A stretch of DNA of 64,000 nucleotides, taken from positions 62,001 through 126,000 of the forward strand of contig JAGFNW010000022.1 of assembly GCA_017592665.1 (NCBI GenBank), written 5' to 3'. Source of the stretch: Streptosporangiaceae bacterium NEAU-GS5. GTDB lineage: Bacteria; Actinomycetota; Actinomycetes; Streptosporangiales; Streptosporangiaceae. Numbering within the stretch: the stretch's first letter is position 1; every line of letters starts with the position of its first letter. Positions 2,493 through 23,197 of the stretch are shown in pieces. Below the pieces are notes generated by a model that was not told the DNA's origin, made no database searches, and was given only the letters and a program-made list of their open reading frames with translations. The position numbers and the translations under genes are program-made.

Positions 2493-2537
2493 CAGCTCCA
2501 AAGCCTCCACAAGGACTTGAATGAAACGCTTGAACAC

Positions 2538-2999
2538 ATGACCGTAGACGAGATCATCGGATTTGTGGACGGCCTCGACGGCGTCCTCACCCTCAGACCG
2601 GGGCCCGGCGACGGGACTCCGGAGATCGCCTGGAGCGACGTGTTCTTCTACTACGCGCCCGACGGCGTCGTCCCGGCGACGACCCAACCCTTCGCGACCG
2701 TCGTGACCAAGGACTATCCCGGCGACGAGACCTCGCGCCTCGACCGGCCGGGCGCCTTCCGCGTGAACCTCGCCCCCGGGAGGCAGGAGTTCATCCGGTG
2801 GACCGGTCACGCGCCCGGCGAGACGACGGCCGTCGAGGCCGCTTCCGACGACACCGTGATCGCGCATCCGGTCTACGGCTCGGCCGGGTGGCTGGCCGTG
2901 GTGAACCCGGGCGGTGGCACCGAGGCCACGGTCCGCGAGCTGCTCCGTACGGCCCATGACCTTGCCCGCGCCCGCTACGAACGGCGCGCTGCCCTTTGA
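2538..2999 (+). CDS. DUF6194 family protein
   Basis: 153 aa, matching the actinobacterial DUF6194 family: an N-terminal helix (TVDEIIGFVDGL), GVLTLRPGPGDGTPEIAWSD, FFYYAPDGVVPATTQPFATV, VTKDYPGDETSRLDRPGAFR, then IAHPVYGSAGWLAVVNPG near the C-terminus. Many homologues are annotated as luciferase-like or hypothetical; no activity is established. The ATG at 2538 was chosen because the domain begins there; no strong ribosome site is present. Divergent from the double-HTH MerR gene, which may regulate it. The stop codon lies inside the first copy of a 17-bp repeat. Confidence 0.85.
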   Translation: MTVDEIIGFVDGLDGVLTLRPGPGDGTPEIAWSDVFFYYAPDGVVPATTQPFATVVTKDYPGDETSRLDRPGAFRVNLAPGRQEFIRWTGHAPGETTAVEAASDDTVIAHPVYGSAGWLAVVNPGGGTEATVRELLRTAHDLARARYERRAAL

Positions 3000-3034
3000 C
3001 GAAAGCCCCCCTTTGACGAAAGGCCCCCTTTGAC
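2995..3034. repeat. 17-bp direct repeat, three starts
   Basis: TTTGAC occurs at 2995, 3012 and 3029, each exactly 17 bp apart. The repeat unit is TTTGACGAAAG followed by a C-rich stretch, and the third copy is cut short. The first copy contains the TGA stop of the DUF6194 gene. Confidence 0.8.
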
Positions 3035-3039
3035 GCCGG

Positions 3040-3072
3040 GAGTCCCCCCACCCGCGCGCGGTGGAGGGACTC
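3040..3072. terminator. Bidirectional hairpin terminator
   Basis: GAGTCCCCCCACC (3040-3052) pairs with GGTGGAGGGACTC (3060-3072) at 12 of 13 positions around a 7-base CG-rich loop. It sits between the convergent ends of the DUF6194 gene (2999) and the repeat-protein gene (3086), so it can serve both. There is no T tract, as is common in actinomycetes. Confidence 0.7.
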
Positions 3073-3085
3073 GGGGGTCGGCGCG

Positions 3086-3988
3086 TCAGCTCGGCGGGAA
3101 CTGACCGTTCTTGGCGACCGGCAGCGCCAGCTGGGTGGCGCCGGACAGCACGGCCTGCTCCGGCGGCAGCCCGGCGAGCACCGGGTTGATGTGCCGCAGC
3201 ACGAGCGAGACCGTCGGCAGGGCGGAGGTGGTGACCTGGTCGAACTTCTCCAGGTCGATCCACCGGATGATGTTGAACACCGCGGCCGAGAAGGTGTCTC
3301 CGGCCTTCTGGACCGGGACGCACAGCTGGCGTGCGTAGAGGACCTGCACGCCGTGCGTCGGGATCAGCGGCGTCAGCACCGGGTTGAGCTGGCGCAGCGC
3401 CACCGCCTGGTTCAACGGGTTGTTGGGCGTGATGGCGTAGCACTTGAGGTCGATGTGCCTGACCAGATCCAGCACCTCGGGCGGCGGAACCACGTTGTTC
3501 TTGATGACCGGCACGCAGAGCTGCTGTGGCGTGGTCATGCCGACCTGCGTGCGCGGCAGCGGCGCGAAGAGCGGGTTGAGGTGGCTCAGCACCAGGCCCG
3601 TGTTCACGGTGATGCCGGAGATCTTGTAGCAGGACAGGTCGATGAACCTCAGGAAGTCGAGCGCGGGCGACGGGGGCACCTGGTTGTTCTTGGCGACCGG
3701 GACGCACAGCTGCTCGCGCTGGCCGAGGGTGACCGTTTCGATCGGCAGGTTCGCGAGCACCGGGTTGAGGTGCCGGATGGTGAGCGAGACGGCCGGCGGC
3801 TGATACGGATTGGTCCGGAAGCATTCCAGATCGAGGAACGCGGTCAGGTCCTTCGGCGTCGGCAGTGTGACGGCGGCGGCGGGCGGCGCGCAGAGGAACG
3901 CGATGGCGAGCACTCCGAGCACGGCCGAGGACAACCGCCGGAGAATCGATTTTCTCGCCCCATGAATGGTTATTAACGGTCGGTTCAC
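3086..3988 (-). CDS. Secreted protein with four ~63-residue repeats (DUF7450-like)
   Basis: 300 aa from a GTG (3988) preceded by GGAGG at good spacing; earlier ATGs lack a ribosome site. A signal peptide (basic start, hydrophobic residues 20-34, cut near AAA-V) leads into four tandem repeats at about 51-105, 113-167, 176-230 and 241-300. The consensus is L-x2-IDL-x-CY, LNPVL-x2-LP, then QLCVPV-x-KN. Each of repeats 1-3 has two cysteines (56/95, 120/158, 183/223), plausibly one disulfide per repeat; repeat 4 has lost both. The pattern resembles DUF7450-type repeats (CY ... LCNPV-K) of secreted proteins. Function unknown; expected outside the membrane. It stands alone. Confidence 0.7.
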   Translation of the reverse strand: MNRPLITIHGARKSILRRLSSAVLGVLAIAFLCAPPAAAVTLPTPKDLTAFLDLECFRTNPYQPPAVSLTIRHLNPVLANLPIETVTLGQREQLCVPVAKNNQVPPSPALDFLRFIDLSCYKISGITVNTGLVLSHLNPLFAPLPRTQVGMTTPQQLCVPVIKNNVVPPPEVLDLVRHIDLKCYAITPNNPLNQAVALRQLNPVLTPLIPTHGVQVLYARQLCVPVQKAGDTFSAAVFNIIRWIDLEKFDQVTTSALPTVSLVLRHINPVLAGLPPEQAVLSGATQLALPVAKNGQFPPS

Positions 3989-18178: not shown

Positions 18179-18369
18179 TCGACGCCGCCCACGCGCGGCA
18201 TGGCGAGATCCATCAGCACGACGTCCGGCCGGTGCTCGGCGGCCATCGCGACGGCCTCGGCCCCGTCGGCCGCCTCGCCCACCACGGTGTAGCCCTCGAC
18301 GGTCGCGAACAGCGCCAGCAGCCCGCTGCGCACGACGGGATGATCGTCCGCGATCAGCAGGCGGATCAT
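18175..18369 (-). pseudogene. Truncated response-regulator receiver domain
   Basis: From ATG 18369 the frame reads 65 residues of a canonical receiver: IRLLIADDHPVVRSGLLALF, then VLMDLAMPRVGGVEA with the phospho-acceptor Asp at 54. After residue 65 homology stops abruptly and the frame runs into antisense-like sequence over the membrane-protein remnant. The Thr/Ser and Lys positions, the output HTH and half the fold are missing, so it cannot work. The start overlaps the stop of the kinase remnant by 4 bp, the normal coupling of a kinase-regulator operon. Confidence 0.75.
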
Positions 18370-18467
18370 GCGGGCTCCCTGACGATCAGGTGGACGCGGA
18401 CCTGGGCGCCGCCGGTGACCAGCGCGCACGCCACACCGAACACCAGCCAGCCCCAGGCGTTCCGCAT
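18366..18467 (-). pseudogene. Histidine kinase remnant (both ends joined)
   Basis: A 33-codon frame from ATG 18467: MRNAWGWLVFGVACALVTGG, like the first membrane helix of a NarL-type kinase, then AQVRVHLIVREPA, like the last strand of a HATPase domain, and a TGA overlapping the ATG of the receiver remnant. I infer an internal deletion of nearly the whole kinase that kept both ends. GGGAG lies 11 bp before the ATG. Upstream (18468-18647) holds no gene; GGTCCC (18566-18571) and GGGACC (18580-18585) form a small hairpin that may end the ArsR transcript. Confidence 0.5.
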
Positions 18468-18647
18468 GCACTGATGCTCTCCCGCCCCGAGTCCCAACGG
18501 AACGGGACAACCTTCCCTGTGCACCAGGACCGTCCGCCGAGCCCGCACTCCGGCTCCCTGGGCGGGGTCCCTGAGCGCGGGGACCTCGCTGCGGAACCGC
18601 GGGCCGGGTCCGCGGGCGAGGTCCTTCGCGCGCGGGGGCTTCGTGGG

Positions 18648-19007
18648 TCAGCGGTCGAGGTGGGACTTCAGGGCGTCGAGCGGGCTGTCCCAGTCGCGGG
18701 CCAGGGCGGCGAGGAACTGCTGCGCCACGCGCATGGGGGCGGATCGGAGGCGGTAGCGCACGCGGCGCCGCTCCCCCGGCTCGGCGGTCACCAGGCCGGC
18801 CTCGGCCAGCAGGGCCAGGTGCTTGGCGATCGCCTGCCGGGTGATCGGCAGCCGGGCGGCCAGGTCGGTCGCGGTGGCCGGACCGGCCGAAGCCAGCGCG
18901 GCAAGGATGCCGCGCCGGCTCGGGTCGGCGAGGGCCGTGAAGACCTGCTCCGCGATGGCCTCGACGTCGTCGGGCCCTATGTCGGCGGGTCTCGGGTCAG
19001 GCCACAT
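18648..19007 (-). CDS. ArsR family transcriptional regulator
   Basis: 119 aa winged HTH: EQVFTALADPSRRGILAALA, ATDLAARLPITRQAIAKHLA as recognition helix, LLAEAGLVTAEPGERRRVRY as wing, and a short C-terminal helix ending LDALKSHLD. This matches the ArsR subgroup usually paired with AHSA1/SRPBCC proteins, with no metal-binding Cys. It is the second gene of a two-gene operon; its ATG (19007) lies 11 bp inside the upstream SRPBCC gene, so translation is probably coupled. The usual order is regulator first; here it is reversed. Confidence 0.9.
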   Translation of the reverse strand: MWPDPRPADIGPDDVEAIAEQVFTALADPSRRGILAALASAGPATATDLAARLPITRQAIAKHLALLAEAGLVTAEPGERRRVRYRLRSAPMRVAQQFLAALARDWDSPLDALKSHLDR

Positions 19008-19428
19008 CGAGGTAGTCGCACAGCTCGCCCAGCTCGCTGATCCAGCCTTGGCCGTGCGCGTCGTACGCCTTGGTGTAGGACTCGTCGGACAGCTGGGCGA
19101 AGCCGGTTTCGACGACCCGGAGCAGCGTGCCCGTGTCGGTCGGCTCGAGGGTGAACTCGACGTAGGTCCGGCGCGGGTCGTCCTTCGGCAGCTCGTAGAG
19201 ATGCCAGGTGAAGCCGAACACGGTCGGCTCCTGGACCCGCTCGACCCGCATGTCGACGCTCGACCCGTCGCTCCAGCGCAGCTGGGCCGCGCCGCCCGGG
19301 CGCAGGTCGATCGTCGCCTCGTTGCCGAACCAGGCGCCGAGCCCTTCGGCCGTGGTGAGCGCCGACCACACCTTGACGGGCGGATGCGCGATCTCGACGG
19401 TCCGCTCGATTCGATCAGGGAAACCCAT
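18997..19428 (-). CDS. SRPBCC (AHSA1-like) domain protein
   Basis: 143 aa with the START-like AHSA1 pattern: RIERTVEIAHPPVKVWSALT, GLGAWFGNEATIDLRPGGAA, RVERVQEPTVFGFTWHLYEL, then TYVEFTLEPTDTGTLLRVVE and a C-terminal helix GWISELGELCDYLD. Such proteins have a hydrophobic cavity; the actinobacterial ones paired with ArsR have no defined ligand. The ATG at 19428 has GGAGGT four bases upstream, preferred over a TTG five codons earlier. Operon with the overlapping ArsR gene. Confidence 0.9.
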   Translation of the reverse strand: MGFPDRIERTVEIAHPPVKVWSALTTAEGLGAWFGNEATIDLRPGGAAQLRWSDGSSVDMRVERVQEPTVFGFTWHLYELPKDDPRRTYVEFTLEPTDTGTLLRVVETGFAQLSDESYTKAYDAHGQGWISELGELCDYLDVA

Positions 19429-19475
19429 GACAACCTCCAACACTAGTTTCTCGTGGACTGCGGCTTCGCCGCGAA

Positions 19476-20846
19476 CTACGCGCCGCGTGGGCGCAACCGG
19501 AGCCAGATCAGCACGACGGCGGCCAGCGTCACGGCCACATCCACCACCACTGCGAGGTGGATGCCGGTCAGCTGGGCGCTCTGCGTCGCGGCGATCGAGC
19601 CCAAGACAGGGATGCCGACGGTGATGGCGACCTGCTGGGTCATCGAGGTCAGGCCGGTCGCCAGGCCCTGCTCGTGGTCGGCCACGCCGGAGGTGCCGGT
19701 CACGGTGTACGCCACGATGGCCGCCACGTGCCCGAAGAACCCGACGAACAGCGCGGGGACGAGGATCGCGAGCGCCATCCGGTCAGGGCCGAGCAGCAGC
19801 AGCGGCAGCGTCGCTAGCGCCTGCACCGTCATGCCCGCGACGAGGACCGTACGGCTGCCGAATCGGCCGATGAAGCGGCCGGCCACGACGCCGGCGAACA
19901 CGGACGCCAGGCCCGGCAGGCCGTAGATCAGGCCGGTGGCCAGCGGGGACAGACCCAGGACCCGCTGCAGGTAGAGCGTCACCAGGAAGATGATGGCGGG
20001 CTCCATCACGAAGATCACGAACCCGCCGAGGTTCCCCCACTTCACCGAGGGCCGCGCGAGGATGCGGACGGGGGCGAGCGGGGCCGGTGAACGCAGCTCG
20101 ATCACCCAGAAGGCGGCCAGCAGCGCGACGCCGGCGACGGCCGCCAGGACGTTCTTCTCGATGATCGCGTAGATGACGGCGAGGAGACCGCCGGTCACGG
20201 TCACCGCGCCCGGCACATCCAGCCGCACCCGGTTCGGCACCCGGCTCTCACCGACCACGAACGGCGCGACCAGCAGGATGGCCACGGCGACCGGGACGTT
20301 GATGAAGAACGCGGCCCGCCAGCCCAGCAGGCTGACCAGCGCTCCGCCGACCAGAGCGCCGGCGGTGAAGCCGCCCGACAGCAGGGCGCCGTTGAGCCCG
20401 AGGACGCGCTCACGTAGCCCGCCTTCCGTGAAGGTGGTCGTGAGCAGCGACAACGACGCCGGGGTCGCCATCGCGGTGGCCAGGCCCTGCAGCGCGCGTG
20501 CGGTCAGCAGCACCTCCGGACTGGAGGCGAAGCCGCCCAGCAGAGAGGCCCCGGTCAGCAGGATCACGCCGGTCAGGAACAGCCTCCGGCGGCCGAAGAA
20601 GTCGGCCAGCCGCCCGAACAGGAGGGTGAAGCCGGCCGCGGGGAGCGCGTACGCCGAGGTGATCCACGGGAACCCGGCCGGGCTCAGACCCACGCCGGCG
20701 CCGGCCTCCGGCAGCGCGACGTTCAGGATCGAAAAGTCGACAGCCAGCATGAATCCGGCGCCGAGCAGCACTAACAGGATCACCCGTTGGCGGGCCGTGA
20801 AACGCGCGGAAACGGGAGCGGGAGCGGTGTCGATCGTGACGGCCAT
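19476..20846 (-). CDS. MFS drug-efflux transporter (DHA2-like)
   Basis: 456 aa with 13-14 hydrophobic helices. The first helix carries the DHA2-type motif AVDFSILNVALPEAG, loop 2-3 the signature GRLADFFGRRR, and LQGLATAMATPASLSLLTTT matches antiporter motif C-like helix 5. Likely a proton-driven exporter of toxic organic compounds in the cytoplasmic membrane. The ATG at 20846 has a strong GAGGAGGA site. Divergent from a MarR gene across a gap with two pairs of palindromes, so it is probably a repressed, inducible exporter. Shorter than many DHA2 members, but no block looks missing. Confidence 0.9.
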   Translation of the reverse strand: MAVTIDTAPAPVSARFTARQRVILLVLLGAGFMLAVDFSILNVALPEAGAGVGLSPAGFPWITSAYALPAAGFTLLFGRLADFFGRRRLFLTGVILLTGASLLGGFASSPEVLLTARALQGLATAMATPASLSLLTTTFTEGGLRERVLGLNGALLSGGFTAGALVGGALVSLLGWRAAFFINVPVAVAILLVAPFVVGESRVPNRVRLDVPGAVTVTGGLLAVIYAIIEKNVLAAVAGVALLAAFWVIELRSPAPLAPVRILARPSVKWGNLGGFVIFVMEPAIIFLVTLYLQRVLGLSPLATGLIYGLPGLASVFAGVVAGRFIGRFGSRTVLVAGMTVQALATLPLLLLGPDRMALAILVPALFVGFFGHVAAIVAYTVTGTSGVADHEQGLATGLTSMTQQVAITVGIPVLGSIAATQSAQLTGIHLAVVVDVAVTLAAVVLIWLRLRPRGA

Positions 20847-20865
20847 GCCATCCTCCTCAGATGTC

Positions 20866-20906
20866 GCAACTGACTGGTTGCGATATTATGGCAACCGATC
20901 GGTTGC
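20866..20906. promoter_or_regulatory. Paired palindromic operators, GCAAC-N6-GTTGC type
   Basis: GCAACTGACTGGTTGC (20866-20881) and the perfect palindrome GCAACCGATCGGTTGC (20891-20906) are two copies of GCAAC-N6-GTTGC with centres 25 bp apart. They lie 20-60 bp upstream of the MFS start, so a repressor bound here would cover that promoter. They differ from the TTGAC-type sites next to the MarR gene. Confidence 0.75.
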
Positions 20907-20924
20907 GTCAAATGCCAGGAATAG

Positions 20925-20962
20925 TTGACACGTCAATCAGTGCTATGTGGTTGACACGTCAA
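20925..20962. promoter_or_regulatory. Paired operators TTGACACGTCAA in front of marR
   Basis: TTGACACGTCAA occurs identically at 20925-20936 and 20951-20962 (26 bp apart). Each is an inverted repeat TTGAC-N2-GTCAA. The second ends 18 bp before the MarR ATG, so these are likely the MarR protein's own sites, and TTGACA may double as a -35 element. Confidence 0.75.
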
Positions 20963-20980
20963 CGAAATGGTGGAGACCCG

Positions 20981-21454
20981 ATGGCCCAGGAGACGACGGC
21001 GCGGCGCACGATGACGTCGCGCGAGCTGGCCGTGTGGCGGTCGCTGATGGACACGACGACCGACCTGCGCCGGGTGCTCGGCGCCGAACTGCAGGAATCG
21101 GGGCTGTCGCCGGGCGACTACGCGGTCCTGCTGGCGCTGAGCGAGGCGCCCGGGCGGCGGCTGCGCTCCTCGGCGCTGGCCACCGAGATCGACTGGGAGC
21201 GCAGCCGGCTCTCCCACCACCTCGGGCGGATGAACCGGCGCGGCCTGATCCGGCGGGAGAGCTGCGTCACCGACAACCGCGGCGCCGAGGTCGTCATGAC
21301 CACCGCCGGCGCGAGCCTGTTCCGGCAGGCCAGCGTGCTCCACCTGCGCGCGGTCAAGGCACGCTTCGCCGACGCGCTGACCGGCGGCCAGCTCACCGCG
21401 CTCGCCGAGATTCTGCAGGCGCTACGCGATCACTTGGAAGGAAGCGAACCGTGA
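20981..21454 (+). CDS. MarR family transcriptional regulator
   Basis: 157 aa. Helical N-terminus (LAVWRSLMDTTTDLRRVLGA), wHTH at about 50-115 (SPGDYAVLLALSE, LRSSALATEIDWERSRLSHH as recognition helix, RLIRRE-type wing with TDNRGAEVVMT), and a C-terminal dimerisation helix. The recognition helix with DWERSRLSHHL matches the subgroup controlling divergent MFS exporters or flavin/NADPH enzymes. ATG at 20981, preceded by GGTGGAGA. It heads a run of four genes (oxidoreductase, LLM, GNAT) and is divergent from the MFS exporter; the stop overlaps the next start. Confidence 0.9.
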   Translation: MAQETTARRTMTSRELAVWRSLMDTTTDLRRVLGAELQESGLSPGDYAVLLALSEAPGRRLRSSALATEIDWERSRLSHHLGRMNRRGLIRRESCVTDNRGAEVVMTTAGASLFRQASVLHLRAVKARFADALTGGQLTALAEILQALRDHLEGSEP

Positions 21455-22098
21455 TGTCCATCGAGCGCATCGCCGTGCTGGGCGCGGGACACGTCGGACC
21501 GGCCATCGCGCGGGTGGCCATCGACGCTGGGTATGAGGTGGCCATCGCCGCCTCCGGCGATCCCGCCGACATCGAGCTGATCACCGGGGTTCTGGTTCCC
21601 GGCGCGACGCCGCTGTGGGCCGCCGACGCGGTCGCCGGCGCGGATCTGGTCGTGCTGGCCATCCCGTTGCACCGCTTCCCGGTTTTCGATCCGGCGCTGG
21701 TGGCGGGCCGCCTGGTCGTCGACGTCATGAACCACTGGGCTCCGATCGACGGCCACGTGGCGATGTTCGAGGACCCGGCGTACGGCAGCAGCGAGATCGT
21801 CGCGCGCCGGCTCGCCGGAGCCACCGTCGTCAAGACCCTCAACCACCTCGGCTACCACGAACTCGAGGACGACCGCAGGCCGGCGGACGCGGCCGACCGG
21901 CGGGCGCTCGGCGTCGCCGCCGACGACCCCGCCGCCGCGGCCCTGGTCGCCGAGGTCGTCGAGCGCATCGGCTACGACGCCGTACGCCTGCCGAGCCTGC
22001 GGGCCGGCCGCCTTCTCCAGCCCGGCGGTCCCGTCTTCGGCGCGGCCCTCGAACGCGCCGCCTTCGAAGACGCCGTCGGCGTCCGCCAAGCCGCCTGA
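21454..22098 (+). CDS. F420/NADP-oxidoreductase-like NAD(P)-binding protein
   Basis: 214 aa Rossmann protein: dinucleotide motif AVLGAGHVGPAIARVAIDAG at the N-terminus, VVLAIPLHRFPVFD, LVVDVMNHWAPIDG and a helical C-terminus. This is the fold of F420-dependent NADP oxidoreductase (NADPH-F420 transhydrogenase); many actinobacterial homologues are only NADP-binding reductases. The ATG at 21454 overlaps the last base of the MarR stop; a GTG one codon earlier is possible. GGAAGGAAG upstream. If it reduces F420, the downstream LLM enzyme could be its consumer. Confidence 0.8.
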   Translation: MSIERIAVLGAGHVGPAIARVAIDAGYEVAIAASGDPADIELITGVLVPGATPLWAADAVAGADLVVLAIPLHRFPVFDPALVAGRLVVDVMNHWAPIDGHVAMFEDPAYGSSEIVARRLAGATVVKTLNHLGYHELEDDRRPADAADRRALGVAADDPAAAALVAEVVERIGYDAVRLPSLRAGRLLQPGGPVFGAALERAAFEDAVGVRQAA

Positions 22099-22138: not shown

Positions 22139-23197
22139 ATGACCACGTTCCCGCTCGTACTCGGCCTCGACACCTTCGGCGACACCACCGACGACGCCCA
22201 GGGCCGCCCGCTCTCGCACGCCCAGTCGATCCGCGACGTGGTCGAGCAGGGCGTGCTGGCCGACCATGTCGGCGTCGACCACATCGGGATCGGCGAGCAC
22301 CACACTCCCGACATGCCCATGCCGGCCGCCGACGTCGTGCTGTCCGCGATCGCGGCCCGCACGTCCCGCATCCGGCTGGGCTCCGCCGTCACCGTGCTGA
22401 GCTCCGACGACCCCGTCCGCGTGTTCCAGCGGTTCTCGACGCTCAACGCCATCTCGGGCGGCCGCGCCGAGGTCATCCTCGGCCGCGGGTCGAGCGTCGA
22501 CTCCTTCCCCCTGTTCGGATACGACCTGGCCGACTACGAAGACCTCTTCGAGGAGAAGACCGCGCTGTTCGCCGAACTCCTCAAGGGCGGGCCGGTCACC
22601 TGGCAGGGCAAGACCCGGGCCGCGCTGTACGAGCAGGACGTCGTGCCGTACGCGGAAAACGGGGCCTTCCCCGTGTGGATCGGCGTGGGCGGCAGCCCGC
22701 AGTCGGTGATCCGGGCGGCCCGGCACGGCATGTCGCTGATGCTGGCCATCATCGGCGGCGACCCCGCCCGCTTCACCCCGTTCTCCGACCTGTTCCAGAA
22801 GGCGCTGCAGCGGTTCGGCCGCGACCCGCTGCCGGTCGGCGTGCACGCCCCCGGACACGTGGCCGCCACCGACGAGCAGGCCCGCGCCGAGTTCTGGCCG
22901 TACTACCTCAAGGTCCTGCGCCACTACAGCAGGATCCGCGGCTTCGCCGTGCCGAACGAGGCGTCGTTCCGCCGCGAGATCGGCCCGCACGGCGCGCTGT
23001 ACGTCGGCTCTCCCGAGACCGTCGCCCAGAAGATCGCCGTAAACATGACCCGGCTTGGCGCCACCAGGTTCGACCTCAAGTACGGTATGGGCGGCTTGGC
23101 CCACGAGAAGCTGATGACCTCCATCGAGCTGTACGGGAGCCAGGTCATCCCGCGCGTACGCGACCTAATGGCGTCCCCGGAGGCTCCGGAGGCCTGA
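22139..23197 (+). CDS. LLM-class flavin/F420-dependent oxidoreductase
   Basis: 352 aa TIM-barrel of the bacterial luciferase-like family: GLDTFGDTT at the N-terminus, VDHIGIGEHHTPDMPMPAAD (the typical GEHH motif), RIRLGSAVTVLSSDDPVRVF, RFSTLNAISGGRAEVILGRG, FPVWIGVGGSPQSVIRAARH and VGSPETVAQKIAVN. These use FMNH2 or F420H2 to oxidise or reduce organic substrates. Perfect ribosome site AAAGGAGATCC. Third gene in the run starting with MarR; the reductase upstream fits a role as reductant supplier. Confidence 0.9.
   Translation: MTTFPLVLGLDTFGDTTDDAQGRPLSHAQSIRDVVEQGVLADHVGVDHIGIGEHHTPDMPMPAADVVLSAIAARTSRIRLGSAVTVLSSDDPVRVFQRFSTLNAISGGRAEVILGRGSSVDSFPLFGYDLADYEDLFEEKTALFAELLKGGPVTWQGKTRAALYEQDVVPYAENGAFPVWIGVGGSPQSVIRAARHGMSLMLAIIGGDPARFTPFSDLFQKALQRFGRDPLPVGVHAPGHVAATDEQARAEFWPYYLKVLRHYSRIRGFAVPNEASFRREIGPHGALYVGSPETVAQKIAVNMTRLGATRFDLKYGMGGLAHEKLMTSIELYGSQVIPRVRDLMASPEAPEA

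Follow-up and report, generated by a model that had tools for sequence, protein, structure and literature searches.

Two predicted tandem operator pairs in a divergent gap, assigned to the ArsR- and MarR-family regulators of the flanking operons

A gap of 134 bp separates the start of an MFS exporter-like gene (20846, minus strand) from that of a MarR-family gene (20981, plus strand) in the 64-kb stretch of Streptosporangiaceae DNA analysed here (the window). We are confident, short of certainty, that two divergent operons meet in this gap, each of which would be repressed by the regulator that it encodes, acting at a tandem operator pair of its own. The features concerned are:

20866-20881, no strand: P1, GCAACTGACTGGTTGC, predicted proximal ArsR operator, over the expected MFS start site
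20891-20906, no strand: P2, GCAACCGATCGGTTGC, predicted distal ArsR operator, in the -35/-10 spacer of the MFS promoter
20925-20936, no strand: O1, TTGACACGTCAA, predicted MarR operator
20951-20962, no strand: O2, TTGACACGTCAA, predicted MarR operator
20883-20911, minus strand: promoter-like site TTGACG-N17-TAATAT of the leftward operon (9 of 12 consensus matches; 1 found versus 0.1 expected in shuffles)
19476-20846, minus strand: MFS exporter-like gene, first in the leftward operon (PF07690, 177 bits, cut-off 33.4)
18997-19428, minus strand: SRPBCC/AHSA1-family gene, second in the leftward operon, with a possible GTG start at 19443 (PF08327, 70.9 bits, cut-off 22.1)
18648-19007, minus strand: ArsR-family regulator gene, third in the leftward operon, proposed repressor for P1 and P2
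20981-21454, plus strand: MarR-family regulator gene, first in the rightward operon, proposed repressor for O1 and O2
21454-22098, plus strand: F420_oxidored-family gene, second in the rightward operon (PF03807, 52 bits, cut-off 21.6)
22139-23197, plus strand: luciferase-like monooxygenase (LLM) gene, third in the rightward operon (PF00296)

Sites and promoter geometry in the gap

On the MFS side, P1 and P2 have the form GCAAC-N6-GTTGC (a tandem GCAACC-N4-GGTTGC), and on the MarR side O1 and O2 are identical copies of TTGAC-NN-GTCAA. A recount in the window places both pairs where the original prediction had put them; the regular 25-26-bp spacing it described holds within each pair (P1-P2 25 bp, O1-O2 26 bp) but not between them, P2 and O1 being 34 bp apart. 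Each motif has two copies in the 64-kb window, both confined to the gap, against a shuffle expectation of 0.04 and 0.00 copies for the two motifs and two copies in 0 of 100 shuffles. The palindromes of the gap are not a product of chance. When the whole 9.96-Mb genome was scanned for GCAAC-N6-GTTGC, the exact motif was found at P1 and P2 and at no other place, hence at no distant regulator gene. Sites with one mismatch number 149, scarcely more than the 129 of a reversed control, so that P looks like a local operator; a genome-wide P regulon was rejected on this comparison. TTGAC-NN-GTCAA has five copies in the genome, of which the three outside the gap are each solitary. A MarR regulon elsewhere in the genome was likewise rejected, as the loci of these three sites gave no match to the MarR, LLM, F420-oxidoreductase, MFS, SRPBCC or ArsR proteins of the window.

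Scanning positions 20800-21020 returned TTGACG-N17-TAATAT on the minus strand as the sole promoter-like call. P2 starts on the final base of the -35 box and stops two bases short of the -10 box, while P1 begins one base past the -10 box and would thereby cover the expected start near 20876, as estimated from spacing. Judged from the sequence, this placement is the layout predicted for an occluding repressor. The same -35/-10 frame encloses the distal P site at 41 of the 75 P-pair places described below, and repression may therefore work differently at other places; spacing between the P sites over these 75 places was 25 bp in 43, 28 bp in 16, 24 bp in eight, 26 bp in seven and 27 bp in one. 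The scan of 20800-21020 gave no promoter call for the MarR gene, and an extended -10-like TGCTATGTG, read by eye rather than called by a tool, lies between O1 and O2.

The GCAACC pair and the ArsR of the leftward operon

The MFS, SRPBCC and ArsR genes all run leftward from the P promoter. The start of the ArsR gene overlaps the end of the SRPBCC gene, the MFS stop lies 32 bp from the SRPBCC gene when the latter is read from its GTG, and neither a promoter-like nor a terminator-like site was called in 18350-19520; the three genes apparently form one operon and would be co-transcribed. The original prediction had taken the MarR gene as the only adjacent regulator gene, a view that finds no support, with an ArsR gene in third place of the MFS operon. 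The ArsR protein exceeds the cut-offs of PF01022 (36.5 versus 22), PF12840 (55.1 versus 27) and NCBIfam NF033788 (64 bits versus 55). It also exceeds that of PF12802 MarR_2 (39.8 versus 27 bits), although HTH_20 and the NCBIfam ArsR model fit better, and no further ArsR match was found in the genome at 1e-15. By position and by linkage, the P pair lies where an autoregulatory operator would, at the front of ArsR's own operon.

The association of P sites with this regulator extends well beyond the window. When the order, represented by 345 genomes, was searched for two P palindromes separated by 7-12 bp, a P pair turned up in at least 72, and a sample of 396 genomes from the phylum yielded at least seven, the window's included; both counts are lower bounds because the pattern misses sites 33-34 bp apart. 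The reversed pattern gave none in the order. The 76 loci examined further reduce to 75 distinct places, L100 and L110 being the same one, in 68 of the 72 genomes. Genomes G336-G339 fall outside this set, and the P pairs of G338 and G339 were covered in the ArsR-locus test described below (L160 and L165). With the window proteins as queries, an SRPBCC and/or ArsR match was found downstream of the P pair at 74 of 75 places, window included. The SRPBCC match is directed away from the pair at 69 of the 75 and an ArsR match is present at 72, of which tblastn gave 71 and the last is the window, where the gene lies outside the locus flank. A MarR match occurs near the P pair at one of the 76 loci, the window's own. 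In the phylum sample, all six other genomes have both ArsR and SRPBCC matches at the locus, with ArsR identities of 45-82%.

The sole place with neither match, L118, has a glyoxalase-like gene behind an SRPBCC start that seems broken; at L124 the SRPBCC is shortened and an ArsR match is missing, and L106 stops at the contig end. L118 (about 1947-2520) and L124 (about 2527-3339) share the succession of P pair, damaged SRPBCC start and glyoxalase-like (VOC) gene, and seem to have lost the regulator and retained the operators. Five places with ArsR first lack a match to the window SRPBCC query (L081, L083 and L145-L147), and their ArsR proteins are only 37-51% identical to the window's, which indicates that the operator persists even where the regulator has diverged widely.

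The linkage was also followed in the reverse direction. All of the best 30 ArsR loci by score carry a P pair at the operon front: in 27 it lies inside the locus, its mismatches totalling no more than two, and in the window, G138 and G183 it lies farther upstream, ahead of an MFS gene. Starting instead from 29 non-self MFS relatives (69-79% identity), we found an ArsR match nearby in 23; P sites are present in all 23 of these loci, and an exact P site in none of the six without. Three of the 23 have an exact pair 25 bp apart and one has such a pair with two mismatches, whereas 15 have two exact P sites 33-34 bp apart and four a single exact site. In 19 loci (L052-L057, L060, L061, L064, L066 and L069-L077) a more distant SRPBCC-ArsR group lies upstream of the MFS relative and is itself preceded by the P sites, which are here 33-34 bp apart or single. 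In G138 and G183 the P pair is followed by MFS-SRPBCC-ArsR, the same order as in the window, with no MarR match, and in G264 (L133) by SRPBCC-ArsR-MFS. The P pair thus keeps its front position while the gene order varies. At L182 (pair at 3274), the gene between the P pair and SRPBCC-ArsR is again an MFS gene, though of lower similarity (41% identity).

A cysteine-based metal-sensing site is typical only of the metal sensors among ArsR proteins. The window ArsR has no cysteine among its 119 residues, which excludes such a site, and we do not file it as a metal sensor; a cysteine occurs somewhere in 10 of 72 aligned P-linked ArsR rows. In the same alignment R57, Q58 and H63 are identical in all 72 rows and K62 in 71, an identity that is descriptive and not an independent test, because the rows were drawn from loci chosen by their P pair. 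As speculation, the signal could be a small molecule, perhaps acting through the SRPBCC protein. The window ArsR is a winged-helix protein like the ArsR/SmtB and SdpR-type regulators, but scores under the cut-offs for CmtR (48 of 150 bits) and SdpR (47.3 of 100 bits).

The nearest described system that we found for the window ArsR, taking the available portion of its source, is Rv2034-Rv2035 of Mycobacterium tuberculosis, where a small ArsR and a polyketide_cyc2-type protein likewise share one operon (PMC3338718). The ArsR of that operon represses itself at a palindrome that has a 4-bp spacer and overlies the promoter. The system differs in having one palindrome with the half-site CCGTAAGT, where the window has two palindromes with the half-site GCAACC; its ArsR gene comes first, with no MFS gene described in the portion of that source available, whereas in the window ArsR is third and MFS first (PMC3338718). 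A GCAACC-type ArsR operator was not named in the open-licence literature searched on ArsR-SRPBCC/AHSA1/polyketide cyclase and on SdpR/ArsR autorepression, and the same kind of search on divergent MarR/ArsR gaps gave nothing relevant.

The MarR-side sites and the rightward operon

The MarR protein scores 40.3 against PF12802 MarR_2 (cut-off 27) and 23.8 against PF01047 MarR, just under the cut-off of 24.6. Its closest solved chains are 3zmd and 3zpl, and 3ZPL is the SCO3205-DNA complex. According to the part of the SCO3205 report available to us (PMC3737563), this regulator of Streptomyces coelicolor binds its operators with affinities of 1.3 nM (O3204) and 2.4 nM (O3205), has the operator consensus TTnAAnnnTCAA and contacts bases through Arg72, Ser73 and His77; as in the window, its two operators lie in a divergent gap. 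With the SCO3205 residue numbering fitted onto the alignment from the residues printed there, all three contact residues are identical in the window MarR, within an ungapped RSRLSH stretch against 3zpl. Also identical are Arg74, Ser76, Arg81, Arg90, Asp96, Arg98 and Gly99, while positions 61, 62, 97 and 100 differ. The SCO3205 pair Trp16/His119, which PMC3737563 names, likewise falls on a Trp and a His of the window MarR. The window O sites share the 12-bp TTGA-N4-TCAA frame with O3204 as given in that part of the report, but TTGACACGTCAA has C at the fifth base where the consensus TTnAAnnnTCAA has A. Given this one-position miss, we do not file the window MarR as an SCO3205 ortholog. The divergent neighbours differ too: that of SCO3205 is SCO3204, which the available text describes with dioxygenases (PMC3737563), and the window's is the MFS gene.

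Among relatives, the O motif goes with the MarR gene. We took as the ortholog set the best-scoring loci, 29 non-self MarR proteins of 57-70% identity. TTGAC-NN-GTCAA, with at most one mismatch, lies within 100 bp upstream in 28 of the 29 (L030 being the ortholog without an O site), and two O sites 26-30 bp apart are found in 20. Exact P sites and MFS matches are both absent from all 29 loci. An LLM match is present in 26, and an F420_oxidored gene lies downstream in all nine orthologs at 64-70% identity. A tandem O pair occurs in 20 of 200 genomes of the family, against 0 for the reversed control. A MarR match adjoins it at 15 of these 20 places (window included), an LLM match only at three and neither at two. 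At L202, L207 and L212 the tandem O pair adjoins an LLM gene with no nearby MarR match; these LLM genes are perhaps controlled in trans.

More remote relatives were also seen. Five loci from soil MAGs labelled Chloroflexi or Dormibacterota (L186-L190) encode MarR relatives 64-68% identical to the window's, with one TTGA-N4-TCAA site each, and L187 retains the MarR-F420_oxidored-LLM order. The presence of MarR and an O-type site in what is, by label, another phylum makes horizontal transfer possible. A MarR relative from Shinella (35% identity) has no O-type site.

Competing assignments and the predicted circuit

From the two operator types the original prediction had deduced two regulators, and the comparison among loci bears this out well, as the pairs separate cleanly between loci in relatives. 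That separation is why we set aside the MarR protein as the ligand of all four sites and the controller of both operons. Such an economy is suggested by the layout, both pairs fitting inside 97 bp with MarR as the nearest regulator gene, yet P sites are absent from all 29 non-self MarR loci, no MarR match accompanies P pairs beyond the window, and the P sites lack the TTGA-N4-TCAA frame read by the SCO3205 contacts; we regard this assignment as extremely improbable. The identity of the second regulator is where we depart from the original prediction, which held that a TetR-family protein encoded elsewhere must bind the GCAACC palindromes and control the MFS gene. MFS genes are often under TetR control, and the GCAACC palindrome has a shape that TetR proteins can bind, both points in its favour. 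Within the order, however, the P pair is tied to SRPBCC-ArsR at 74 of 75 places, and in the phylum sample in six of six genomes, mostly where there is no MFS match; the exact P motif, confined to the gap in this genome, accompanies no distant regulator gene. On this linkage, a TetR-like second regulator seems very unlikely to us, and the GCAACC pair goes with the ArsR gene of the MFS operon. Because each pair of sites can be assigned to a repressor in one of the two flanking operons, a hidden distant regulator is unnecessary.

A recent junction might alternatively have joined two promoter regions and left the sites as relics, with one or both circuits dead. The MFS/MarR junction recurs in none of the 29 other MarR loci, and decayed P loci do exist (L118 and L124), as this explanation would have it; but all four sites have intact arms, P2 is flanked by intact promoter boxes, and each regulator gene is still an open reading frame of the usual length, so we give it hardly any weight.

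We therefore return to two divergent operons with separate repressors. We infer that the ArsR of the MFS-SRPBCC-ArsR operon binds P1 and P2: a dimer on P2 would fill the -35/-10 spacer and another on P1 would cover the start site, so that with both occupied RNA polymerase would be shut out of the MFS promoter. ArsR would in this way hold down the operon that encodes it until released by a signal. On the other side MarR, encoded first in the MarR-F420 oxidoreductase-LLM operon, would bind O1 and O2 and limit its own operon.

No other locus examined combines the two site types. Relative to the MFS promoter, O1 falls at roughly -49 to -60, and if MarR acts there the exporter would answer to both regulators. 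We offer only as a tentative and rather unlikely combination that all of the following hold together: that tandem GCAACC-N4-GGTTGC is an old operator, as yet undescribed, belonging to a widespread ArsR-SRPBCC class of actinobacteria (retained with ArsR down to 37-55% identity), that the SRPBCC pocket protein, and not metal, may carry the signal, and that O1, brought in by a new junction in this genome, places the exporter under dual control.

The arrangement is ordinary in kind and shows no new mechanism. Its value is that a guessed, missing remote regulator gives way to a direct assignment of protein to site, with both proteins encoded next door, and that the locus offers a clean case of two operons, each predicted to be autoregulated, meeting at one promoter region. 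The wide linkage of the P pair provides a usable motif for predicting the targets of an uncharacterised actinobacterial ArsR-SRPBCC family.
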